Below, piece after piece: positions 1 through 9,509 of a DNA stretch of 64,000 bases (position 1 is the stretch's first letter; each line of letters opens with the position of its first letter). Made by a program: the position numbers and the translations under genes. Below the pieces are notes generated by a model. It saw nothing but the letters and a program-made list of their open reading frames with translations, was not told the origin of the DNA and made no database searches. The stretch is from the NCBI GenBank assembly GCA_017792345.1, contig CP051228.1:3936148-4000147 (forward strand), in the 5' to 3' direction. The stretch comes from Mesoflavibacter sp. GTDB taxonomy: Bacteria; Pseudomonadota; Alphaproteobacteria; UBA8366; Aestuariispiraceae.

Positions 1-1481
1 TTGTGGACAGCGACATCGTTCAGCATCGCATTGTCGCCGCGGCTTGCGCGCGCCTGGATGTGGTTCGTGATGGTCGTGGTGAGCGCGTCGCTGTGCCCGT
101 AGAGCTTGAGGGCGGCGGAGCCCTGGTCGTCGAGGATCTGCTGGGCTCCGTCCGCCTCGTCGACGATCACGATGTCGAAGGAGCGCGCCACATGCTCGAA
201 ATAGCGCAGGCGAACGGGGCTGAAATGCGGCGGGATCTCGGTATCAGTCGAAGCGATGTGACCGGCCCAGATGTCGTGTTCGACGAGTTCGCGCGCTCCG
301 GCGTGCCGACCGCAGACGGAAGCGAGCGGGCAGAGCTTCTCGCGTGGCCGCCGACCGCCGCCTTCCTGTCGGAGGCGTCGACAGGGCGGCGCCATATGCG
401 GGAAGGGCGCGTCGTCCTCTGAGGCGAAGGCCGCCAGAGTGCAGTTGGTGCCGAAGAGCCGCGCGCTCGGCGCGCTCGCGCCGATCCCTGCAGGATCGGA
501 GGAGAGTCGCTCCGCCAGGCGGTTCGTATGTCGGCGGCGCGTATTCTCGGACTGGCCGACGAGCAGGCCGACGGGGCAGTCGAGTTGGTCGAGCCGCTCG
601 ATGAAGGCGGCGGTTACCTGAATCGAGGGGAAGAGGAAGAGGGCGCGCACACCGTGACGTTTGAAGGCCCGCGCCATGATATGGAGGAGCGTCGTCTTTC
701 CGGCGCTCGGCAGCCCGATCAGGTGCTTCACCCCGTCGAATTCAATGGCGTCAGCGTCCTCCAAGCCGCTCGCCCCCGGTCGCTTAAGGGCTGCGCGGGC
801 GGCGCCCGTCTCGGGGTCTTCGAGTCGGGCACGCCAGTACATCGGCTCCAGCCCGCGCGCATGTTCGACGCGGTCCATGTCGTCCGCCTCAGCCAGGATG
901 TCGGTCCAGCTTAGTCGGAAGTGAGCCGCAGGCGTCCTGGTCATATCGTGCTGCGGCGCGGGCGGCAGCGTCGAAGGCAGTTCCGAGACGGTTCCTCGAT
1001 AATCTTCGATCGCCTCAGAGCGGGGCGCGATGGAGATGGCTTGCGTGGGGGTGGCGGTCGGCTGCTGGACCGGCTTGTCCAGGAAGAGGGAGACGAGCAG
1101 CGCTTCGAGGTCGGTGATGTCGTAGGGTGCGAGTGTGCCCCAGCCCGTCTGGAAGGTGAGATTGCGGTCGATCACAAAGCGCCGGTCGAAGCCGAGATCT
1201 TCGCCGAAGCCGAGCTGCCCCGCATCTCGGAGATCGTGGTAGTCGCTGTATTTCTGGGCGAGCCGGATCAGGCCCTTGCGCGTCGTGACCGCCTGGCCAA
1301 GATGGCGAAGGTTTGCGAGAATCAGCTCGCCTTGCGGGTGGGCCGTATGCCGCGTGACTGTGGTGAATCCCGAGAGGAGGACCGGCATGGGCGTGAGCGT
1401 GTTGAAGCCAAGAAGCCGGGCCGCGACGCATAGATAGTTGAGGCGGTCGATCCCGCGATAGAGATGCGTCGTCTCACGCAC
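1..1481 (-). CDS. DinG-like Fe-S superfamily 2 helicase, partial (pPIWI-RE-type island)
   Basis: Reading leftwards from a GTG at 1481 the frame stays open for 493 codons and leaves the window, so the C-terminal half is missing. About 250 unrecognised N-terminal residues precede a Walker A loop (GLPSAGKTT, residues 256-264), four cysteines at 347, 367, 384 and 390 as in the Fe-S insertion of DinG/XPD helicases, and a Walker B of DEAD form (IVDEADGAQ, D441-D444). AAGGAG lies just upstream of the GTG, and the start overlaps the stop of the nuclease gene by 8 bases, so the pair is translationally coupled. A DinG-type helicase next to a nuclease-fold protein is the known gene pairing of pPIWI-RE loci; a PIWI gene is predicted further left but cannot be seen. 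Helicase call is firm, system assignment is inference. It could instead belong to another helicase-nuclease defence system. Confidence 0.72.
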   Translation of the reverse strand, partial: MRETTHLYRGIDRLNYLCVAARLLGFNTLTPMPVLLSGFTTVTRHTAHPQGELILANLRHLGQAVTTRKGLIRLAQKYSDYHDLRDAGQLGFGEDLGFDRRFVIDRNLTFQTGWGTLAPYDITDLEALLVSLFLDKPVQQPTATPTQAISIAPRSEAIEDYRGTVSELPSTLPPAPQHDMTRTPAAHFRLSWTDILAEADDMDRVEHARGLEPMYWRARLEDPETGAARAALKRPGASGLEDADAIEFDGVKHLIGLPSAGKTTLLHIMARAFKRHGVRALFLFPSIQVTAAFIERLDQLDCPVGLLVGQSENTRRRHTNRLAERLSSDPAGIGASAPSARLFGTNCTLAAFASEDDAPFPHMAPPCRRLRQEGGGRRPREKLCPLASVCGRHAGARELVEHDIWAGHIASTDTEIPPHFSPVRLRYFEHVARSFDIVIVDEADGAQQILDDQGSAALKLYGHSDALTTTITNHIQARASRGDNAMLNDVAVH

Positions 1482-2592
1482 CCTTCAGCTCCTTCAGGAA
1501 GTCGGCGCTCGACATGATCTCCAATGAGGGGAGGGAAGGGTCAAGCCGAGCTCGGAGCTGCGGAATGAAAGCCGGTGTCACGACGATGATCGGATCAGGA
1601 ATGCAGATGATCCGACGGCTGTAGCGTGCCAAGCGCCCGATCCCGGCGTTCAGTCGCCGGGCGAGCGAGATAGGAGAGAGATTGGCTTTGAGATCCAGGG
1701 CGATCGCGCCGTCGATCAGCACGTCGCAGGCGTCCATTCGGTCATAGAGGACCGCATCGCGTCCAAGGGCGCGCGCTTCGTCATAGAGGGCGCATTCGTC
1801 CAAGCCGGGTGAGACCCAGAATGTCAGGACCGCGTCGCCGACTTCGATGAGATCCTCTGTCCAAGGAACCGACACGCCGGTTCGCCCGCGGCCATGGCGC
1901 ATCTCGCATATCGGCGTCGCGCACGATCCGGTTGCGCGCCGCAACCGCGATCCGCAGTGTTCGCACGTCGAAACCACGCCGTCGATCGGCCTCGGCGTCG
2001 GCTGGTAGATCTCGTTTTGCAGGACGCCGGCGAGACCCATCGTGCGTGCAGATGTCATGAAGGCGTGGAGCGCTCCGCGGGTGGTTACCGGGGTGCGGAC
2101 GATGAACTCGCGGACGGCGCTATAGACCCGCTCACGGTCGCTGCCGGCGACCGAGCTCTTGATCTGCTCCATGAGCCTGGCGAAAAGGACGCCTTCCTCT
2201 AGGTCGGCCAGGTTGGACGCGCCACGGACGAGGTCTGCGCAGTCAGGTGTCGGGACGCCCTGATCGGTCAGGAGGCGGACACTGGCAAGGCCGTCGTCCG
2301 TGCTCAAGGCGCCAAGGGGCCAATCCTTGAACGAGGTGCGGCACAGGCTGAGGACGTCGTGGAGGCTTGCCGAGAAATCGGGGCGACTTTCCTCGATGGC
2401 GGCTCGCCCAAGGAGGGCAAGGGTCGTCCGCCCCTCTTGGTCCAGATCCACCTCCCGCGTGGCAGCGCGCATCCGGCGCTTTTCATATTCGCGTCGCACC
2501 AGAATGGCGAGCCGGGTCGCGAGCATTTCTGAGGTGGACGCACTCCCACCGTCGGGAGAAGAAGGAGGTAGCGTGGGGTCAGACGTCTGCAT
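1474..2592 (-). CDS. Restriction-endonuclease-fold protein with zinc motif (pPIWI-RE-associated type)
   Basis: 372 residues. The N-terminal 200 residues are alpha-helical in character and unrecognised. Four cysteines at 210, 213, 224 and 229 form a probable zinc ribbon. The C-terminal part has a PD-(D/E)xK-like core: a strand ending in D290/D294 (CDVLIDG) followed by LDLK at 299-302, where D300 and K302 would be the paired catalytic residues. This order, a Cys4 motif and then a nuclease core, beside a DinG-like helicase fits the REase partner of pPIWI-RE loci, which are thought to act against invading DNA. The first ATG at 2592 is used; no good ribosome site is visible, and a 6-base inverted repeat (CGTCTG/CAGACG) surrounds it. 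Nuclease fold is read from the motif only; activity is not shown. A TnsA-like transposition nuclease was considered, but no transposase partner is seen. Confidence 0.6.
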   Translation of the reverse strand: MQTSDPTLPPSSPDGGSASTSEMLATRLAILVRREYEKRRMRAATREVDLDQEGRTTLALLGRAAIEESRPDFSASLHDVLSLCRTSFKDWPLGALSTDDGLASVRLLTDQGVPTPDCADLVRGASNLADLEEGVLFARLMEQIKSSVAGSDRERVYSAVREFIVRTPVTTRGALHAFMTSARTMGLAGVLQNEIYQPTPRPIDGVVSTCEHCGSRLRRATGSCATPICEMRHGRGRTGVSVPWTEDLIEVGDAVLTFWVSPGLDECALYDEARALGRDAVLYDRMDACDVLIDGAIALDLKANLSPISLARRLNAGIGRLARYSRRIICIPDPIIVVTPAFIPQLRARLDPSLPSLEIMSSADFLKELKGA

Positions 2593-2692: not shown

Positions 2693-3673
2693 ATGGGCAA
2701 AGCCAATGTCAGTGATGAGTTCAAACGAGATCCGGTCGCGCGGTTTGTGGATCGGGGGTGCCCGGCTTCGGAAGTGTCTTAACGGATTGGTGTCAGCCAG
2801 CATTCGCTGTATGCCTGAATGCGAAAACTCGTGAAAGGGGCGGCCATTTCCAAAGAGAAGGGCACGGAGATCCGCCGGTTGAGGCTGGAATTGGCCCGTG
2901 TCACGGAGAAACGCGGCATCCTAAAAAGGACGACGGCGTGTTTCGCTCGGGATTCAAAGTGAGAAACGCGCTCGTGACCGAGCATCGCGCGTTGTTCTCG
3001 GTGCGTGCGAAGTGCCAGTGCCTTCGCATCCGGCCTAGCGGGTTCTATGCTTGGCTGAAGACGCCTCTGACCAAACGAGCCCGGGAAGACAAGCGTCAGG
3101 CTGAACTGCTCCGAACGACTTGGGACGACAGTGGCAAGGTCTACGGATATCGCAAACTGCTTGACAGTCTGCTCGACGAAGGAGAGCGCGTTCAGTTCGA
3201 AGCGTGTCGCCCGACTGGCGCGGATAGCAGGAATAACGGCTCAGATCGGCTACAAACGCAGTCCCGGCAAATATGGCGGCAAACTGTCCCTGGCCGTCGA
3301 CAACGCGCTGAACCGGCAGTTCGACGCGGTGGCACCGGATCGGGCCTGGGTGACCGATATAACCTATATCCGAACGCTGGATGGGGGCGCGAATCTGGCC
3401 GTTGTCATCGATCTCAAATCCCGCCGGTTCGTCGGGTGGTCGATGCAAAACCTTCAGACCACGGAAGTCGCGCTACAAGCCCTGCACATGGCCGTCTGGC
3501 GTCGGAAGCCTAAGGGTCGCATGTTGATCCACTCGTACCAGGGCTCCCAGTTCACAAGCATGGATTGTGCGGCTTTCACCCGAACCCACAAACTTGAGCC
3601 TTCAATGAGCCGAAGGGGCATTTGCCACGACAACGCCGTTGCTAATGGTCTGCTCCCCCGACCTGGTTCCTGA
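2693..3673 (+). mobile_element. IS3-family insertion sequence remnant, inactive
   Basis: An AAGGAGG site precedes an orfA start at 2693. OrfA is recognisable (MGKANVSDEFKRD, then GVSQHSLYA) but carries a TAA after EVS, with a frame change, and a TGA where the usual Trp of LYAW stands. OrfB-like sequence begins near 2959 (VRNALVTEHRALFSVRA) and continues through YAWLKTPLTKRARED, then shifts frame near 3190 to RVARLARIAGITAQIGYKR, DRAWVTDITYIRT and MSRRGICHDNAVA. The first catalytic Asp (VTDITYI) is kept, the second is changed (HSYQGSQFT for the usual HSDQGSQFT), and the glutamate region is lost because the match stops at about 3650. Terminal inverted repeats were not identified. The element is dead and 3'-truncated; it may have carried the deletion that damaged the genes to its right. 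Confidence 0.85.
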
Positions 3674-5581: not shown

Positions 5582-6520
5582 TCAGGCGATGCCGTCCAGC
5601 ATGGCGCCGACGGGGCCGTCGCGAAAGTCATCCGCCTCCGCCAACAGCCAATCCCGGAACGCGACGAACTTCGGCAGATCCGCATTCTGCGGCGCACAGG
5701 TGAAATAGCAGCTCTTGCTGGGCAGGCTCTGCGGATGGACAACGGCAAGGCGGCCCGATTCGATCTCCCGCGCTGCAGCCAGGAGACCGACCAGCGCGAC
5801 GCCGTGCCCGTCAATCGCCGCCTGGATACACATATGCTCATCCCCGAAAACCGAGGCATTGGCCGGTGCAGGACGGGCGGGATCGACCGAGTCCCACCAG
5901 AGTAACCAACCCGGGTCGCCCGGCTTGTAACCGCGCCATTCGTATTGGATCAAGGGCAGGCGCCTTAACTCATCGGCAGTCAGGGTCTGTCCCTTTGCGG
6001 TCAGTCGGGTGGGTGAGCAGACCGGAATGGCGGCATCGGTCAGAACCCAGGCCGCGAACAGGTCGCCGACCTCACCCCGGCCGTATCGGATCGCGACATC
6101 AATGCCATGGCGGGCGAAATCCAGGACATCGTCCGTCGCGACCAGACGAACCGCAATGTCCGGATACTGACTGGAAAAGCGATGGAGTCTCGGGGCGAGC
6201 CAATTGGTCGCGAAGGACATGGTTGCGGTGACGACCAACTCCCCCCGGGCGGAGGCGTCCTCCAGGGCGGTGCCGGCCTGTCGAAATGACTGGAAAGCCT
6301 GTCGTATCCAGGGGGCATAGGCGGCGCCGTCCGGTGTCAGCCGAAGCGCCCTTGGCAGGCGGTGAAACAGCTTTCGTCCCAGGTGATCTTCCAGAGTCCG
6401 GATTCGGTGACTGACGGCGGTCGGCGTGATGTTCAGTTCTTCCGCCGCGCGCTGAAAGCTGAGATGGCGGGCGGCGGCGTCGAAGGCTTCGAGGCTCTTG
6501 AGAGGCGGATATCCGGCCAT
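5582..6520 (-). CDS. LysR-family transcriptional regulator, GcvA-like
   Basis: 312 residues from the Met at 6520. The N-terminal winged helix-turn-helix reads LKSLEAFDAAARHLSFQRAA then LNITPTAVSHRIRTLEDHLG, the standard LysR DNA-binding helix. The rest is the periplasmic-binding-like effector domain, with LVVTATMSFATNWLAPRLHR at its start, as in the GcvA branch. A 14-residue upstream extension (to 6562) is open but lacks the family pattern, so the shorter start is used. The azoreductase gene follows by 115 bases in the same direction, and the ArsR operon lies divergently. The inducer is unknown; control of azoR is inferred from position alone. Confidence 0.9.
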   Translation of the reverse strand: MAGYPPLKSLEAFDAAARHLSFQRAAEELNITPTAVSHRIRTLEDHLGRKLFHRLPRALRLTPDGAAYAPWIRQAFQSFRQAGTALEDASARGELVVTATMSFATNWLAPRLHRFSSQYPDIAVRLVATDDVLDFARHGIDVAIRYGRGEVGDLFAAWVLTDAAIPVCSPTRLTAKGQTLTADELRRLPLIQYEWRGYKPGDPGWLLWWDSVDPARPAPANASVFGDEHMCIQAAIDGHGVALVGLLAAAREIESGRLAVVHPQSLPSKSCYFTCAPQNADLPKFVAFRDWLLAEADDFRDGPVGAMLDGIA

Positions 6521-6614
6521 GGCAATTCCCGTCGCGGAAAGAGGGCGCAGGACCGATAGCATCGCATAGGTGGGACGGTCCAGTCAGCCGGGTGATGAAC
6601 ATTAAACTAATTGG

Positions 6615-6657
6615 TTGACTATTGTTGTGTCCCGCTTATATTCAACCGCATGGTTGA
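6615..6657 (+). promoter_or_regulatory. ArsR operon promoter with overlapping operator
   Basis: A sigma70-type promoter, TTGACT at 6615-6620 and TATATT at 6637-6642, has a 16-base spacer. A palindrome TCAACC-GCAT-GGTTGA at 6642-6657 overlaps the end of the -10 element and the proposed ATG at 6650. The expected transcription start coincides with that ATG, so the message would be nearly leaderless. The palindrome is a natural operator for autorepression by the ArsR protein, blocking RNA polymerase. Inference from sequence only. Confidence 0.6.
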
Positions 6658-7033
6658 TTATCAAGTCATGGACCTCAACACGGTCTTTCACGCACTCGGC
6701 GACGCCACGCGCCGCCGGATGCTGAGCGATCTGGCGGGCGGTGATCGGACCGTCAGCCAGTTGGCGGAACCCTATGAGATGTCGCTGGCGGCGGCATCGA
6801 AACACATCAAGGCGTTGGAAAAGGCGGGTCTGATCAGACGGGAAATCCAGGGGCGTACGCATGTCTGCCGACTGGACCCCGCACCGCTCGCCGACGCGCA
6901 TGAATGGTTGAGCTTCTATGAACGCTTCTGGACCGGGCGCCTCGATACCCTCGAGCGGTTGCTGCGGGAGGAGGATGAAGAAGCGGCCCGACTGTCTGAA
7001 CAATCCCAATCCAATGAAGGAAATGACAAATGA
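6650..7033 (+). CDS. ArsR-family regulator (SRPBCC-linked type)
   Basis: 127 residues from 6650. A compact winged helix-turn-helix: DLNTVFHALGDATRRRMLSD, then TVSQLAEPYEMSLAAASKHI as the recognition region and LEKAGLIRREIQGRTHVCRL as the wing. The metal-binding cysteine pair of true arsenic or zinc sensors (ELCVCDL) is absent, as is usual for ArsR proteins paired with an AHSA1/SRPBCC partner. Its stop overlaps the start of that partner by four bases (ATGA). The ATG at 6650 lies just 8 bases after the -10 hexamer; a further in-frame ATG at 6668 is possible, and an earlier one at 6611 would fall inside the promoter. Confidence 0.92.
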   Translation: MVDYQVMDLNTVFHALGDATRRRMLSDLAGGDRTVSQLAEPYEMSLAAASKHIKALEKAGLIRREIQGRTHVCRLDPAPLADAHEWLSFYERFWTGRLDTLERLLREEDEEAARLSEQSQSNEGNDK

Positions 7034-7563
7034 GCGTTATCACCGCGAGTGCCGATTACGGCATTCTGACCGACGAGAAGACCTTGGAAATTCAGCGGCG
7101 TCTGCCGGGGCCGATCGACCGGGTCTGGTCCTATCTGGTCGATGGCGAAAAGCGCAGCAAATGGCTGGCTGCCGGCGACATGGAACCGAAGGCCGGTACG
7201 GCGTTCACGCTGACCTGGCGCAATGACGAACTGACGGATCCTCCGGGCGCGCGTCCCGACGGATTCTCCGATGATCACAGCATGGCGAGCCGGATTGTCG
7301 AGTTCGAACCGCCCCACAAGCTGACATTCACCTGGGGCGACAGCGGCGAAGTCACCTTCCTTTTGAAAGAGGCAGGGCAGGGCGTCTTGCTGACGGTCAT
7401 TCACCGCGGACTGCCGGATCGCAACATGACGCTCATGGTCGGGCCCGGCTGGCATATCCATCTCGACGTGTTGCGTTCGAAACTGTCCGGCGAAACGCCC
7501 GAACCGTTTTGGGACGGCTGGGTTCGGCTGCGCTCGGAGTATGAACGGCGTATTCCCGCTTAA
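7030..7563 (+). CDS. SRPBCC/AHSA1-family protein
   Basis: 177 residues of a single START-like ligand-binding fold. It begins with LEIQRRLPGPIDRVWSYLVD and KRSKWLAAGDMEPKAGTAF, then FEPPHKLTFTWGDSGEVTF and the C-terminal helix HIHLDVLRSKL, the order seen in activator-of-Hsp90 homology proteins. Translation is coupled to the ArsR regulator by an ATGA overlap. Such pairs are common; the ligand is generally unknown. The helix-grip pocket suggests binding of a small hydrophobic molecule, but no substrate can be read here. Confidence 0.88.
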   Translation: MSVITASADYGILTDEKTLEIQRRLPGPIDRVWSYLVDGEKRSKWLAAGDMEPKAGTAFTLTWRNDELTDPPGARPDGFSDDHSMASRIVEFEPPHKLTFTWGDSGEVTFLLKEAGQGVLLTVIHRGLPDRNMTLMVGPGWHIHLDVLRSKLSGETPEPFWDGWVRLRSEYERRIPA

Positions 7564-7591
7564 AACCAATGGCTAAGTAAGGAATGTTGTG

Positions 7592-8350
7592 ATGACACAT
7601 CACCCTGTTGCCGCCACGCGTGAGGAATGGATCGCCGCCCGCAAGGCACTTCTGACGGCGGAAAAGGACCACACCCAATTGGGGGATCGGCTGGCCAGAA
7701 TGCGCCAGGACCTGCCCTGGGTGCGGATCGATCGGGATTACAGGTTTCAATCGGCGAATGGCCCGGTCGGTTTCTCGGATCTGTTCGAAGGGCGCTCGCA
7801 ATTGCTGGTGCAGCATTTCATGTTTGGACCCGATTTCTCGGCAGGCTGTCCGTCCTGTTCGTCCATCGCCGATGGTGTCGAGGGGAGCGTCGTTCATCTG
7901 AACGCCCATGACGTAACCTTCGCCGCCGTCTCGCGGGCGCCGATTGAAACCCTGCTGGGCTATCGGGACCGAATGGGCTGGTCCTTCCCCTGGTATTCCA
8001 GCGGCGACGATACGTTCAACTTCGATTTCAACGTGTCCTTCACCGAGGAAGAACAGCGGCACGGCCAGGTGGACTACAATTACCGCCTCGGCGGCCACGC
8101 GATGGATCTGCGTCCGATACCGGGACCGGTGGAGCAGGCGGCTGCCGATTGCGGTACGGACGGCCTAACCTTCGGCAGGGACCGGCCCGGGATCAGCGCC
8201 TTCATACGCCGGGATGGCGTGATCTATCACACCTATTCGGCTTACTCGCGAGGCGTGGACGGGGTGTGGGGTGTCTATGCCTGGCTGGACCGCGCGCCGC
8301 TGGGGCGCAATGAAACCGGTCCATGGATGCGGCGTAACGACGAGTATTGA
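7592..8350 (+). CDS. DUF899 thioredoxin-like family protein
   Basis: 252 residues from the ATG at 7592; a GTG one codon earlier is less well spaced from AAGGA at 7579-7583. Family signatures are the N-terminal EEWIAARKALLTAEKDHTQL, LPWVRIDRDYRF, and QHFMFGPDFSAGCPSCSSIA, which contains the conserved Cys pair. IYHTYSAYSRGVDGVW and the C-terminal LDRAPLGRNE are also typical. DUF899 proteins have a thioredoxin-like fold without a settled function. It follows the SRPBCC gene by 28 bases and probably forms the third gene of the ArsR-controlled unit. Confidence 0.9.
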   Translation: MTHHPVAATREEWIAARKALLTAEKDHTQLGDRLARMRQDLPWVRIDRDYRFQSANGPVGFSDLFEGRSQLLVQHFMFGPDFSAGCPSCSSIADGVEGSVVHLNAHDVTFAAVSRAPIETLLGYRDRMGWSFPWYSSGDDTFNFDFNVSFTEEEQRHGQVDYNYRLGGHAMDLRPIPGPVEQAAADCGTDGLTFGRDRPGISAFIRRDGVIYHTYSAYSRGVDGVWGVYAWLDRAPLGRNETGPWMRRNDEY

Positions 8351-8396
8351 GGTCCTTGCTTTGTCGGGCAGGTCGGCCTGGGGCAAAACGATCCCG

Positions 8397-9509
8397 CTAA
8401 ACGGCGGTCAGAACCGTCAGGTGATTGTCCCAGGCCGTTCCCGGCAGGCGCGTTAACGCTTCGCCGTCACGCCACAACCCGCCCTGGCCATCGCTGAACA
8501 GAAATCCGGCAGCCAACGGGGCGACGCCGCAGACATCGGCGATTTCCAGCCTGCGCAGGCTTCGGCCTGTCCGGCCGTCGAGAATATGGGCAAACCCGCC
8601 GCGTGGCGCCGTGACCGCTATCTGCCCGGTTTGCGGGTTCGACGCGACGGATCCGATGTAATGCCGGGCCCGCGCGCCGTCCTCTTCCAGCGTATCCAAT
8701 GGGGTCAGGGTCCGGTCGCCGGGCCGGGCGACCGCCAGGATCGGGACAGTGTCCTGCTCCGGTCCCTGATACTGGCCGCCGATCCAGATTGCGCCATCCG
8801 GGGCTTCCGCGATATGGCGCAGCGACAATTGCCGCAGCGCGTCCGGCAGGGCTTGTCGGTCGAGACACGCGCCGGTCCGAAGATCGATACGCGTAACATT
8901 TGGTGCCATGGTGGCCAGATTGAGCTTCCGGCGCGGAAAGTCCGGATGGGTTTCGATACCGCCATTGGCGATGACCGCCATCCGCCCGTCGGCGGTCAAT
9001 AAACATTGATGAGGGCCGATGCCGCCCGTATCGAACTCTCCGACCCGGTGGTAGGAATCCGTGGCGTCGTAGATGCCCAGAACGCCCCGCACGCCGTCGA
9101 AGTCGTTCTCGGTGGCAAAGAGAAGCCTGCCGTCCGCGCTAAAGAAACCATGGCCGTAGAAATGCCGGTCGGGGCGGGCGCGAATAATCTGGGTCAGGCT
9201 TCCCTGGACCCGGTCGATGACAAGGGCGTTGGTGCCGGGACGGCGGGCGAACAGCACACAGAACCGCCCGTCCGGGGAAACGGCGCCGCCATGCCCGCGG
9301 CCTGCGAGCGGGAATTCGGCCAGAATGCGGCCGCCGCCGTCGAGCAGAGTTCCTGCGTCCCCGCCATCCGGCAACCGCCGGGACGACAGGTAGACCATGT
9401 TGCGATCAGAGCCGCCAAATGCGCTGCGAACGGTCAGCGGGAATGTGCTACCCGCCGCCATAAGGGCAAGGGCCGCACGGCGGTTTGGATCAATCGCCGT
9501 CGAGCGCAT
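8397..9509 (-). CDS. DUF1513 beta-propeller-like exported protein
   Basis: 370 residues. The N-terminus NRRAALALMAAGS followed by a hydrophobic stretch looks like a twin-arginine signal, so the protein is probably periplasmic. The body has repeated blade-like units (AVSPDGRFCVLFAR, FSADGRLLFATEND, LTADGRMAVIANGG, NPQTGQIAVTAPRGG) and the family motif GIGPHQCLLTADGR. The start overlaps the stop of the second imelysin gene by 20 bases, and it is the last gene of the iron-type set. DUF1513 proteins usually travel with imelysins and a di-heme oxidoreductase; their biochemical role is unknown. Confidence 0.9.
   Translation of the reverse strand: MRSTAIDPNRRAALALMAAGSTFPLTVRSAFGGSDRNMVYLSSRRLPDGGDAGTLLDGGGRILAEFPLAGRGHGGAVSPDGRFCVLFARRPGTNALVIDRVQGSLTQIIRARPDRHFYGHGFFSADGRLLFATENDFDGVRGVLGIYDATDSYHRVGEFDTGGIGPHQCLLTADGRMAVIANGGIETHPDFPRRKLNLATMAPNVTRIDLRTGACLDRQALPDALRQLSLRHIAEAPDGAIWIGGQYQGPEQDTVPILAVARPGDRTLTPLDTLEEDGARARHYIGSVASNPQTGQIAVTAPRGGFAHILDGRTGRSLRRLEIADVCGVAPLAAGFLFSDGQGGLWRDGEALTRLPGTAWDNHLTVLTAV

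Follow-up and report, generated by a model that had tools for sequence, protein, structure and literature searches.

The stretch of Mesoflavibacter sp. DNA analysed here (the window: 64,000 nucleotides, positions 3936148-4000147 of contig CP051228.1, assembly GCA_017792345.1, a genome consisting of one contig of 4,907,657 bases) begins within a pPIWI-RE system whose arrangement was not found described in the literature searched (open-licence papers, in part, so that absence is no proof): the PIWI-RE protein continues into a giant chain with STAND/NLR-type ATPase domains, and it is followed by a gene bearing a HEPN motif. As judged from sequence matches and structural models, a single tight operon encodes a restriction endonuclease (REase), a DinG-type helicase, the PIWI-RE protein fused to a tandem STAND ATPase, and a partner (P4) that combines a STAND-like domain lacking Walker motifs with the HEPN motif. 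The features are listed below, where L002 denotes the same DNA read leftward; a window position equals the L002 position minus 18148, the genes to the left of the window having negative window positions.

Window 1474-2592, minus strand: gene 1, PprRE nuclease with helical Y domain, Cys4 zinc ribbon and REase core; open reading frame of 372 aa with ATG start
Window 2080-2382, minus strand: pPIWI_RE domain Y, residues 71-171 of gene 1 (Pfam E-value 1.1e-7)
Window 1483-1806, minus strand: pPIWI_RE REase domain with D...DxK, residues 263-370 of gene 1 (Pfam E-value 6.2e-11)
Window 1-1481, minus strand: gene 2, PprDinG helicase, GTG start at 1481; the first 493 of its 1,126 aa lie in the window
L002:16249-19629, minus strand: gene 2 in whole, 1,126 aa, continuing left of the window
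L002:6850-16245, minus strand: gene 3, PIWI-RE and tandem STAND ATPase, a single open frame of 3,131 aa
L002:13456-16245, minus strand: PIWI-RE part of gene 3, residues 1-930
L002:7804-8946, minus strand: first STAND ATPase of gene 3, with winged helix, about residues 2434-2814
L002:6865-7764, minus strand: second STAND-like domain of gene 3, degenerate, about residues 2828-3127
L002:5742-6857, minus strand: gene 4 (P4), STAND-like domain and C-terminal HEPN motif, GTG start, 8-nt overlap with gene 3
L002:5817-5834, minus strand: HEPN motif of P4, R342-H347 (R-x4-H)

Two coupled minus-strand genes of pPIWI-RE type had been proposed from the letters of the window, and both open reading frames were confirmed: the end of gene 1 and the start of gene 2 overlap by 8 nt, and gene 2 runs off the left end of the window. 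Profile searches placed both genes in the proposed type. In addition to its Pfam matches, gene 1 matches the PADLOC model PprRE at 2.7e-37, and gene 2 matches PprDinG at 7.5e-72 for the part in the window and at 1.4e-162 for the whole gene (residues 11-1113), so that both sequence matches lie far above chance level. The predicted Cys4 motif and D...DxK nuclease core of gene 1 are kept in all 13 aligned rows, and the helicase Walker A/B motifs, four DinG-like cysteines and DEAD/DExD box in all 16, our own row being counted in each case. The N-terminal domain of the helicase, which the original prediction called unknown, does have a match to pPIWI_RE domain Z, but a weak one (2.2e-4; 21.6 bits, below the Pfam cut-off of 25); the PADLOC PprDinG model spans this region. 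The PIWI gene expected further left on the minus strand, with MID and RNase H domains, is indeed there: it begins 3 nt after the helicase gene, and its N-terminus matches the pPIWI-RE domains X (1.7e-13), MID (3.1e-8) and RNase H (1.4e-20), all above cut-off, with the PADLOC model PprPIWI matching residues 19-926. The gene order is thus REase-DinG-PIWI with tight spacing, an 8-nt overlap being followed by a 3-nt gap. The original prediction is correct within its scope; the unusual part, comprising the PIWI-STAND/NLR fusion and the HEPN-motif gene, lay outside its view.

Downstream of its PIWI-RE part, gene 3 contains about 1,400 residues, linking PIWI and ATPase, that have no Pfam match, and then a region (residues 2463-2598) that matches AAA_22 at 5.9e-9. 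In PADLOC searches up to an E-value of 1, the matches of gene 3 were all to pPIWI-RE models, with DruK (0.034) as the one exception. Residues 2325-3131, modelled with AlphaFold at a mean predicted local distance difference test score (pLDDT) of 79.5, contain a STAND/NLR fold at model residues of about 110-490, for which structural comparison gave paby2304 (Z 20.3, root-mean-square deviation (rmsd) 4.1, 314 residues aligned), ORC2 (Z 18.5, rmsd 5.6, 349 aligned), the plant NLR RPP1 (Z 17.2, rmsd 4.4, 305 aligned) and CED-4 (Z 16.0, rmsd 4.8, 299 aligned). Model residues 504-803 also resemble CED-4 (Z 15.7, rmsd 4.9, 279 aligned), and no Walker A motif was seen in this second STAND-like domain. 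The Walker A/B residues of the STAND ATPase are invariant in two alignments, of 10 and 31 rows. As modelled, the first ATPase is an intact STAND/NLR-type domain with winged helix, and the second STAND-like domain is degenerate.

The model of P4 has a mean pLDDT of 91.5. Its N-terminal part, up to about residue 260, is structurally similar to paby2304 (Z 10.6 and rmsd 5.0 over 242 aligned residues) and to CED-4 (Z 10.5 and rmsd 4.7 over 234); where the P-loop would lie, the consensus of the family lacks a Walker A motif. The C-terminal part is modelled as helical, with the R-x4-H motif ending one helix. R342 and H347 are invariant in alignments of 37 and 30 rows, and 62 of 64 P4 frames have the motif close to where the HEPN part ends, the two others being a frame of only 63 aa (L042) and one within which the sequence ends (L107). 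The HEPN_Swt1 profile matches six of 30 P4 members at E-values up to 0.1 (best 7.7e-4), our own not among them, and PADLOC gave no match to gene 4 at E-values up to 1. Judged from these sequence features, gene 4 is a probable RNA-cutting toxin. A plainer explanation of the locus is restriction, the STAND part serving as an ATP-driven scaffold that places helicase and REase on DNA, with P4 as a structural component. The full conservation of the REase core (13/13) and the helicase motifs (16/16) agrees with it, as do seven unfused PIWI-RE loci, of three-gene or other organisation and presumed functional, with neither STAND tail nor P4 in view (L008, L009, L103, L104, L105, L106 and L119; the PIWI gene of L106 and L119 was found by PF13032 and missed by our own profile). 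It is hard to explain, however, why a purely structural part should keep the HEPN motif across phyla (62/64), and we consider simple restriction quite unlikely.

Relatives of the fusion were sought in several ways. A tblastn search of plasmids with the PIWI part gave 15 records, seven of which (two from Azospirillum, one from Microvirga and four from Bradyrhizobium) also hold the tail close by in the same orientation; gene order was read in four of the seven, namely the Microvirga record, both Azospirillum records (L006 and L018, which are near-copies) and one from Bradyrhizobium. A profile search of genome contigs with the ATPase alignment gave at least 548 relatives, of which the best 80 by match to our own sequence were sampled; in four of these 80 loci PIWI-RE is fused upstream, and in 51 P4 follows downstream, in most cases as the adjacent gene. 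Two more fusions (L108 and L109) came from PF13032 searches. The fused loci number eleven (own, L006, L007, L013, L018, L052, L061, L066, L078, L108 and L109): all have helicase and P4, and the REase gene comes first in all seven with enough upstream sequence. In the Azospirillum ramasamyi copy (L006:11944-21720) the fusion is annotated as two frames, with the PIWI part split; that of A. oryzae (L018) is one frame. The former annotation is what could be said for an artefact of assembly or annotation, an explanation that is refuted for practical purposes by open frames spanning 3,092-3,394 aa in assemblies independent of one another, among them separately annotated proteins, and by consistent helicase and PIWI trees; we assign it a vanishingly small probability.

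The fused system is rare and patchy. PF13032 was found in two of 385 genomes of our organism's own class, three of 398 of its phylum (one below cut-off), two of 98 relatives, three of 300 in the order of G650, two of 297 in the family of G878 and one of 117 in the family of G895, these genome sets overlapping one another. The six distinct genomes above cut-off comprise three intact fusions (own, G878 and G895), one decayed locus (G034) and two unfused ones (G650 and G1280). By the same profile the system is absent from all five other genomes of the genus and all eight others of the family. The decayed locus, from the same class (L107:11185-18999), retains a 75-aa PIWI fragment, a shortened ATPase and P4. 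In Bradyrhizobium sp. 186 there is a remnant (L014:12968-15746) consisting of the last ~370 aa of the fusion, 94% identical to B. elkanii, and P4. Among unfused loci, the three-gene island of Cupriavidus sp. P-10 (L103:2723-8983) has an ISL3 transposase between the REase and helicase genes, and a Hymenobacter plasmid (L104:7556-13866) has a divergent PIWI-RE spread across three frames, with an extra ATP-dependent DNA helicase gene downstream.

In our own PIWI-RE part, D676 and D742 fall in Asp columns that are conserved in the alignment, and were matched to D525 and D610 of PsPIWI-RE by motif position, not by alignment; an RxR motif (R782, R784), a candidate for the R of the R and E residues typical of the family, is invariant in six rows. 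Both Asp residues are present in nine of the eleven fused PIWIs, L108 lacking the first and L109 both. Among the three-gene rows, the first Asp is absent from those of Calothrix, Tolypothrix and two Cupriavidus, and Hymenobacter has both. Despite these losses L108 and L109 keep the REase core and the HEPN motif, which fits a role for the PIWI in sensing rather than slicing.

On this basis we propose that the four genes form a pPIWI-RE system whose sensing of nucleic acid feeds straight into an NLR-like switch. The available portions of the 2013 description already contain a proposal of DNA-RNA hybrid sensing, with helicase and REase following (PMC3702460), and those of a later study report that PsPIWI-RE acts in vitro as a DNA endonuclease guided by RNA, with 5'-OH guides accepted and with 10 nt as the shortest active length (PMC10991935). 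In the present system PIWI-RE would be loaded with a small guide, probably of RNA in view of the PsPIWI-RE measurements, and together with the helicase would recognise invader DNA that matches the guide, perhaps within R-loops. Once its target was bound, the STAND ATPase would be able to take up ATP and to assemble with P4 through the STAND-like domains; the assembly would bring HEPN domains together, these would cut cellular or invader RNA, and the infected cell would be stopped. The REase, and the PIWI where its Asp residues are intact, would cut invader DNA in parallel. The four-gene locus is probably antiviral. As for the whole of this alarm mechanism, we regard it as evenly balanced between right and wrong, and domain knowledge leads us to place at the same midpoint the narrower proposal that the STAND tail and HEPN partner form an added relay and RNA-cutting arm. 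That a STAND receptor here uses the Argonaute-superfamily domain to sense its ligand, guide-DNA pairing triggering resistosome-like assembly and the HEPN partners destroying RNA, is put forward more tentatively, as somewhat less than an even chance.

Several points weigh against the proposed alarm mechanism. For fused members, no experiment was found in the literature that demonstrates defence, binding of a guide, assembly driven by ATP or RNase activity, and the sequence gives no sign of the kind or source of guide. The single tested PIWI-RE found in the literature, that of P. stutzeri, was reported on deletion to affect cell division and ciprofloxacin sensitivity, not phage (PMC10991935, in the sections available). 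Both Asp residues persist in most fused PIWIs (9/11), so slicing may matter. The Z-scores of about 10.5 for the N-terminal domain of P4 are moderate by the comparison tool's own caution. Our own P4 has no Pfam match up to an E-value of 1, and comparison with the PDB, filled by matches to the N-terminal domain, gave no solved structure for its HEPN part, an outcome that tells neither for nor against a HEPN fold; the HEPN assignment thus rests on the motif, the helix layout and the profile matches of relatives, which are weak and in three cases below the Pfam cut-off. Finally, P4 was not detected at 29 of the 80 sampled STAND loci; six of these have less than 900 nt after the ATPase frame, which leaves 23 where the partner either is absent, is of another type or has diverged too far.

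The descent of the fusion was addressed by several trees. In the helicase tree (16 rows) all eleven fused loci form one clade (support 100/99) apart from five three-gene loci, and the PIWI tree (16 rows) gives the same clade at 98/98. Both trees split the fused loci into clade A, of eight loci, and clade B (own, L108 and L109), the latter also being found in a 55-row ATPase tree (100/95). The plasmid hosts of clade A are alphaproteobacteria by their records, and we take the other four hosts to be so too. A divergent WYL regulator stands beside all four clade A plasmid loci (L006, L007, L013 and L018); there is none in L002 or the window. An early 91-row ATPase tree set our own row apart from the alphaproteobacterial PIWI fusions, as did an early P4 tree (48 rows, without L108 and L109) on weakly supported branches, and a one-clade test on the early ATPase rows rejected the group (p 1.35e-9), which omitted a PIWI-less Agrobacterium row nested within it, our own row being a long branch. 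Two independent fusions, as a candidate explanation, were withdrawn, since L108 and L109 draw our own ATPase row beside them (100/95) and the helicase and PIWI trees give one clade. On the 55-row ATPase tree three changes of the PIWI label are still needed, with 0% of 200 bootstrap trees having one change, and the 12 PIWI rows group with L011 and L017 at only 60/40. A single fusion origin with subsequent losses is therefore favoured by the helicase and PIWI trees, and is not proven by the ATPase tree; a simple single origin is opposed by that 60/40 support, by the early ATPase and P4 placements and by several long branches, of which the early ATPase and P4 trees and the helicase and PIWI trees all gave warnings. 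The ATPase tree also places, within its clade of PIWI fusions, the Ti plasmid of Agrobacterium leguminum (L011:9551-18004), which has a WYL regulator, a STAND ATPase and a HEPN-kinase without PIWI, and which has probably lost the PIWI trio.

The two clades differ in P4, which has a C-terminal kinase in all eight clade A loci and in none of the three of clade B. In four relatives this part matches AAA_33 at 5.4e-4 to 7.4e-15. The best solved match of a kinase-bearing query is 4gp6 (8.6e-9), deposited as 'Metallophosphoesterase', which we take to be the kinase domain of bacterial Pnkp; Pnkp1 (0.0028) and T4 polynucleotide kinase (0.0049) follow. HEPN cleavage would be expected to leave 5'-OH ends. 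The main rival to the alarm mechanism is that the HEPN partner is a guide maker, which would cut transcripts to 5'-OH RNA for PIWI-RE, the clade A kinase dressing the 5' ends. Both the kinase matches, with the kinase in 8/8 clade A loci, and the cleavage of DNA by PsPIWI-RE with RNA guides that include 5'-OH ones (PMC10991935, in the portions available) would be in keeping with this. Such a role sits poorly, however, with the kinase-less P4 found beside PIWI-less STAND proteins in many phyla, with the kinase-bearing P4 that occurs without PIWI (two of 52 P4 frames from PIWI-less loci, L011 and L014) and with the lack of a kinase in the three fused loci of clade B, our own among them. The kinase tracks one clade, indicating one event and not many. 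A guide maker is in our judgement unlikely.

P4 accompanies STAND ATPases well beyond pPIWI-RE systems. In 47 of the 80 sampled loci STAND and P4 occur with no PIWI in view, although two of these loci end on the left within the ATPase frame, so that PIWI may lie beyond. This PIWI-less two-gene module, a STAND-type ATPase (median 1,925 aa for uncut frames) followed by a HEPN-motif partner (L019-L098, L010, L012 and L016), is widespread, its hosts including cyanobacteria, acidobacteria, planctomycetes, Bacillota, myxobacteria and others. Its recurrence makes the pair look like an autonomous module to which PIWI-RE became joined. Some cyanobacterial and actinobacterial ATPase relatives (L015, L026, L039, L045 and L085) have no P4 detected downstream. 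The STAND-HEPN pair had no name or description in the literature searched, and is of interest in its own right.

The operon is flanked by the following features.

L002:3119-3193, plus strand: tRNA-Asn
Window 2758-3673, plus strand: two overlapping partial transposase frames, presumably IS3-type, adjoining the nuclease gene as neighbours outside the system (rve domain, 8.4e-23)

A CheZ-like gene lies left of the tRNA (L002:2127-2867), and a LysR regulator and a DUF1513 gene lie right of the partial transposase frames (window 5582-9509). Homology with a genome of the same genus (76-81% identity) continues up to the 3' end of tRNA-Asn, a point 2.5 kb past P4; from there on, 17 kb of the other genome has no match in about 79 kb of our own DNA rightward, and a third match, of 104 bp, comes from the left flank of that genome. 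The region looks variable, no right end of it having been found. A search for attachment-site duplication found no second exact copy of the last 18 nt of the tRNA in about 82 kb, and Rfam over 20 kb, searched for a guide RNA gene, gave the tRNA only. As to phage origin, the tail is absent from phage records, and the PIWI part from viral contigs as searched with one usable peptide pattern. A housekeeping or replication role in place of defence could draw on the P. stutzeri deletion phenotype, with its effects on cell division and ciprofloxacin sensitivity (PMC10991935, in the sections available). It is very unlikely given the patchy, accessory distribution (0/5 genomes of the genus and 0/8 of the family), the seven fused plasmid records and the position of our own locus beside a tRNA where synteny breaks.

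pPIWI-RE islands were predicted in 2013 (PMC3702460, in the portions available), and no published demonstration of their action in defence was found in the literature searched. A recurrent NLR-like fusion with an RNase-like partner offers a concrete and testable hypothesis for what target recognition leads to; if true, Argonaute-type guide recognition and NLR-type signalling would be joined in one molecule. The portions available of PMC3702460, PMC10991935, PMC11981726, PMC7159879, PMC3710099, PMC5303251 and PMC7641849 make no mention of a PIWI-RE-STAND fusion, and the only fusion given by Burroughs, Iyer and Aravind in those of the first is a rare one, in the standalone kind, with a zincin at the N-terminus. 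With the three-gene island described there our locus shares the nuclease with Y domain, zinc ribbon and REase core, the DinG helicase with Fe-S cysteines, the X-MID-RNase H architecture of PIWI-RE, and the same REase-DinG-PIWI order with near-zero gene spacing (PMC3702460). Unlike that island, it has a tandem STAND tail of ~2,200 aa on PIWI and then the STAND-like/HEPN gene. HEPN is likewise coupled to bacterial AAA/STAND NTPases in the Swt1-like HEPN-AAA ATPase Ava_2192 and in HEPN-STAND proteins, with no link to pPIWI-RE in the available text of PMC3710099. The iSTAND systems similarly have inactive STAND domains in a conflict setting, and pair with MoxR-vWA, no PIWI-RE appearing in the available text of PMC7159879. 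The PIWI-less STAND-P4 module, as in Salinibacter (L010) and Thiodictyon (L012), has the same ATPase motifs and a HEPN-motif partner downstream, with no PIWI, helicase or REase of our own kind in view. SPARTA belongs to a different PIWI branch, has a different effector, and is not known to have a STAND ATPase, helicase or REase. If the alarm mechanism holds, our locus would nevertheless be like SPARTA-type short Argonautes (TIR-APAZ; PMC11156904) in using an Argonaute-like sensor to switch on an effector that acts at the level of the cell.

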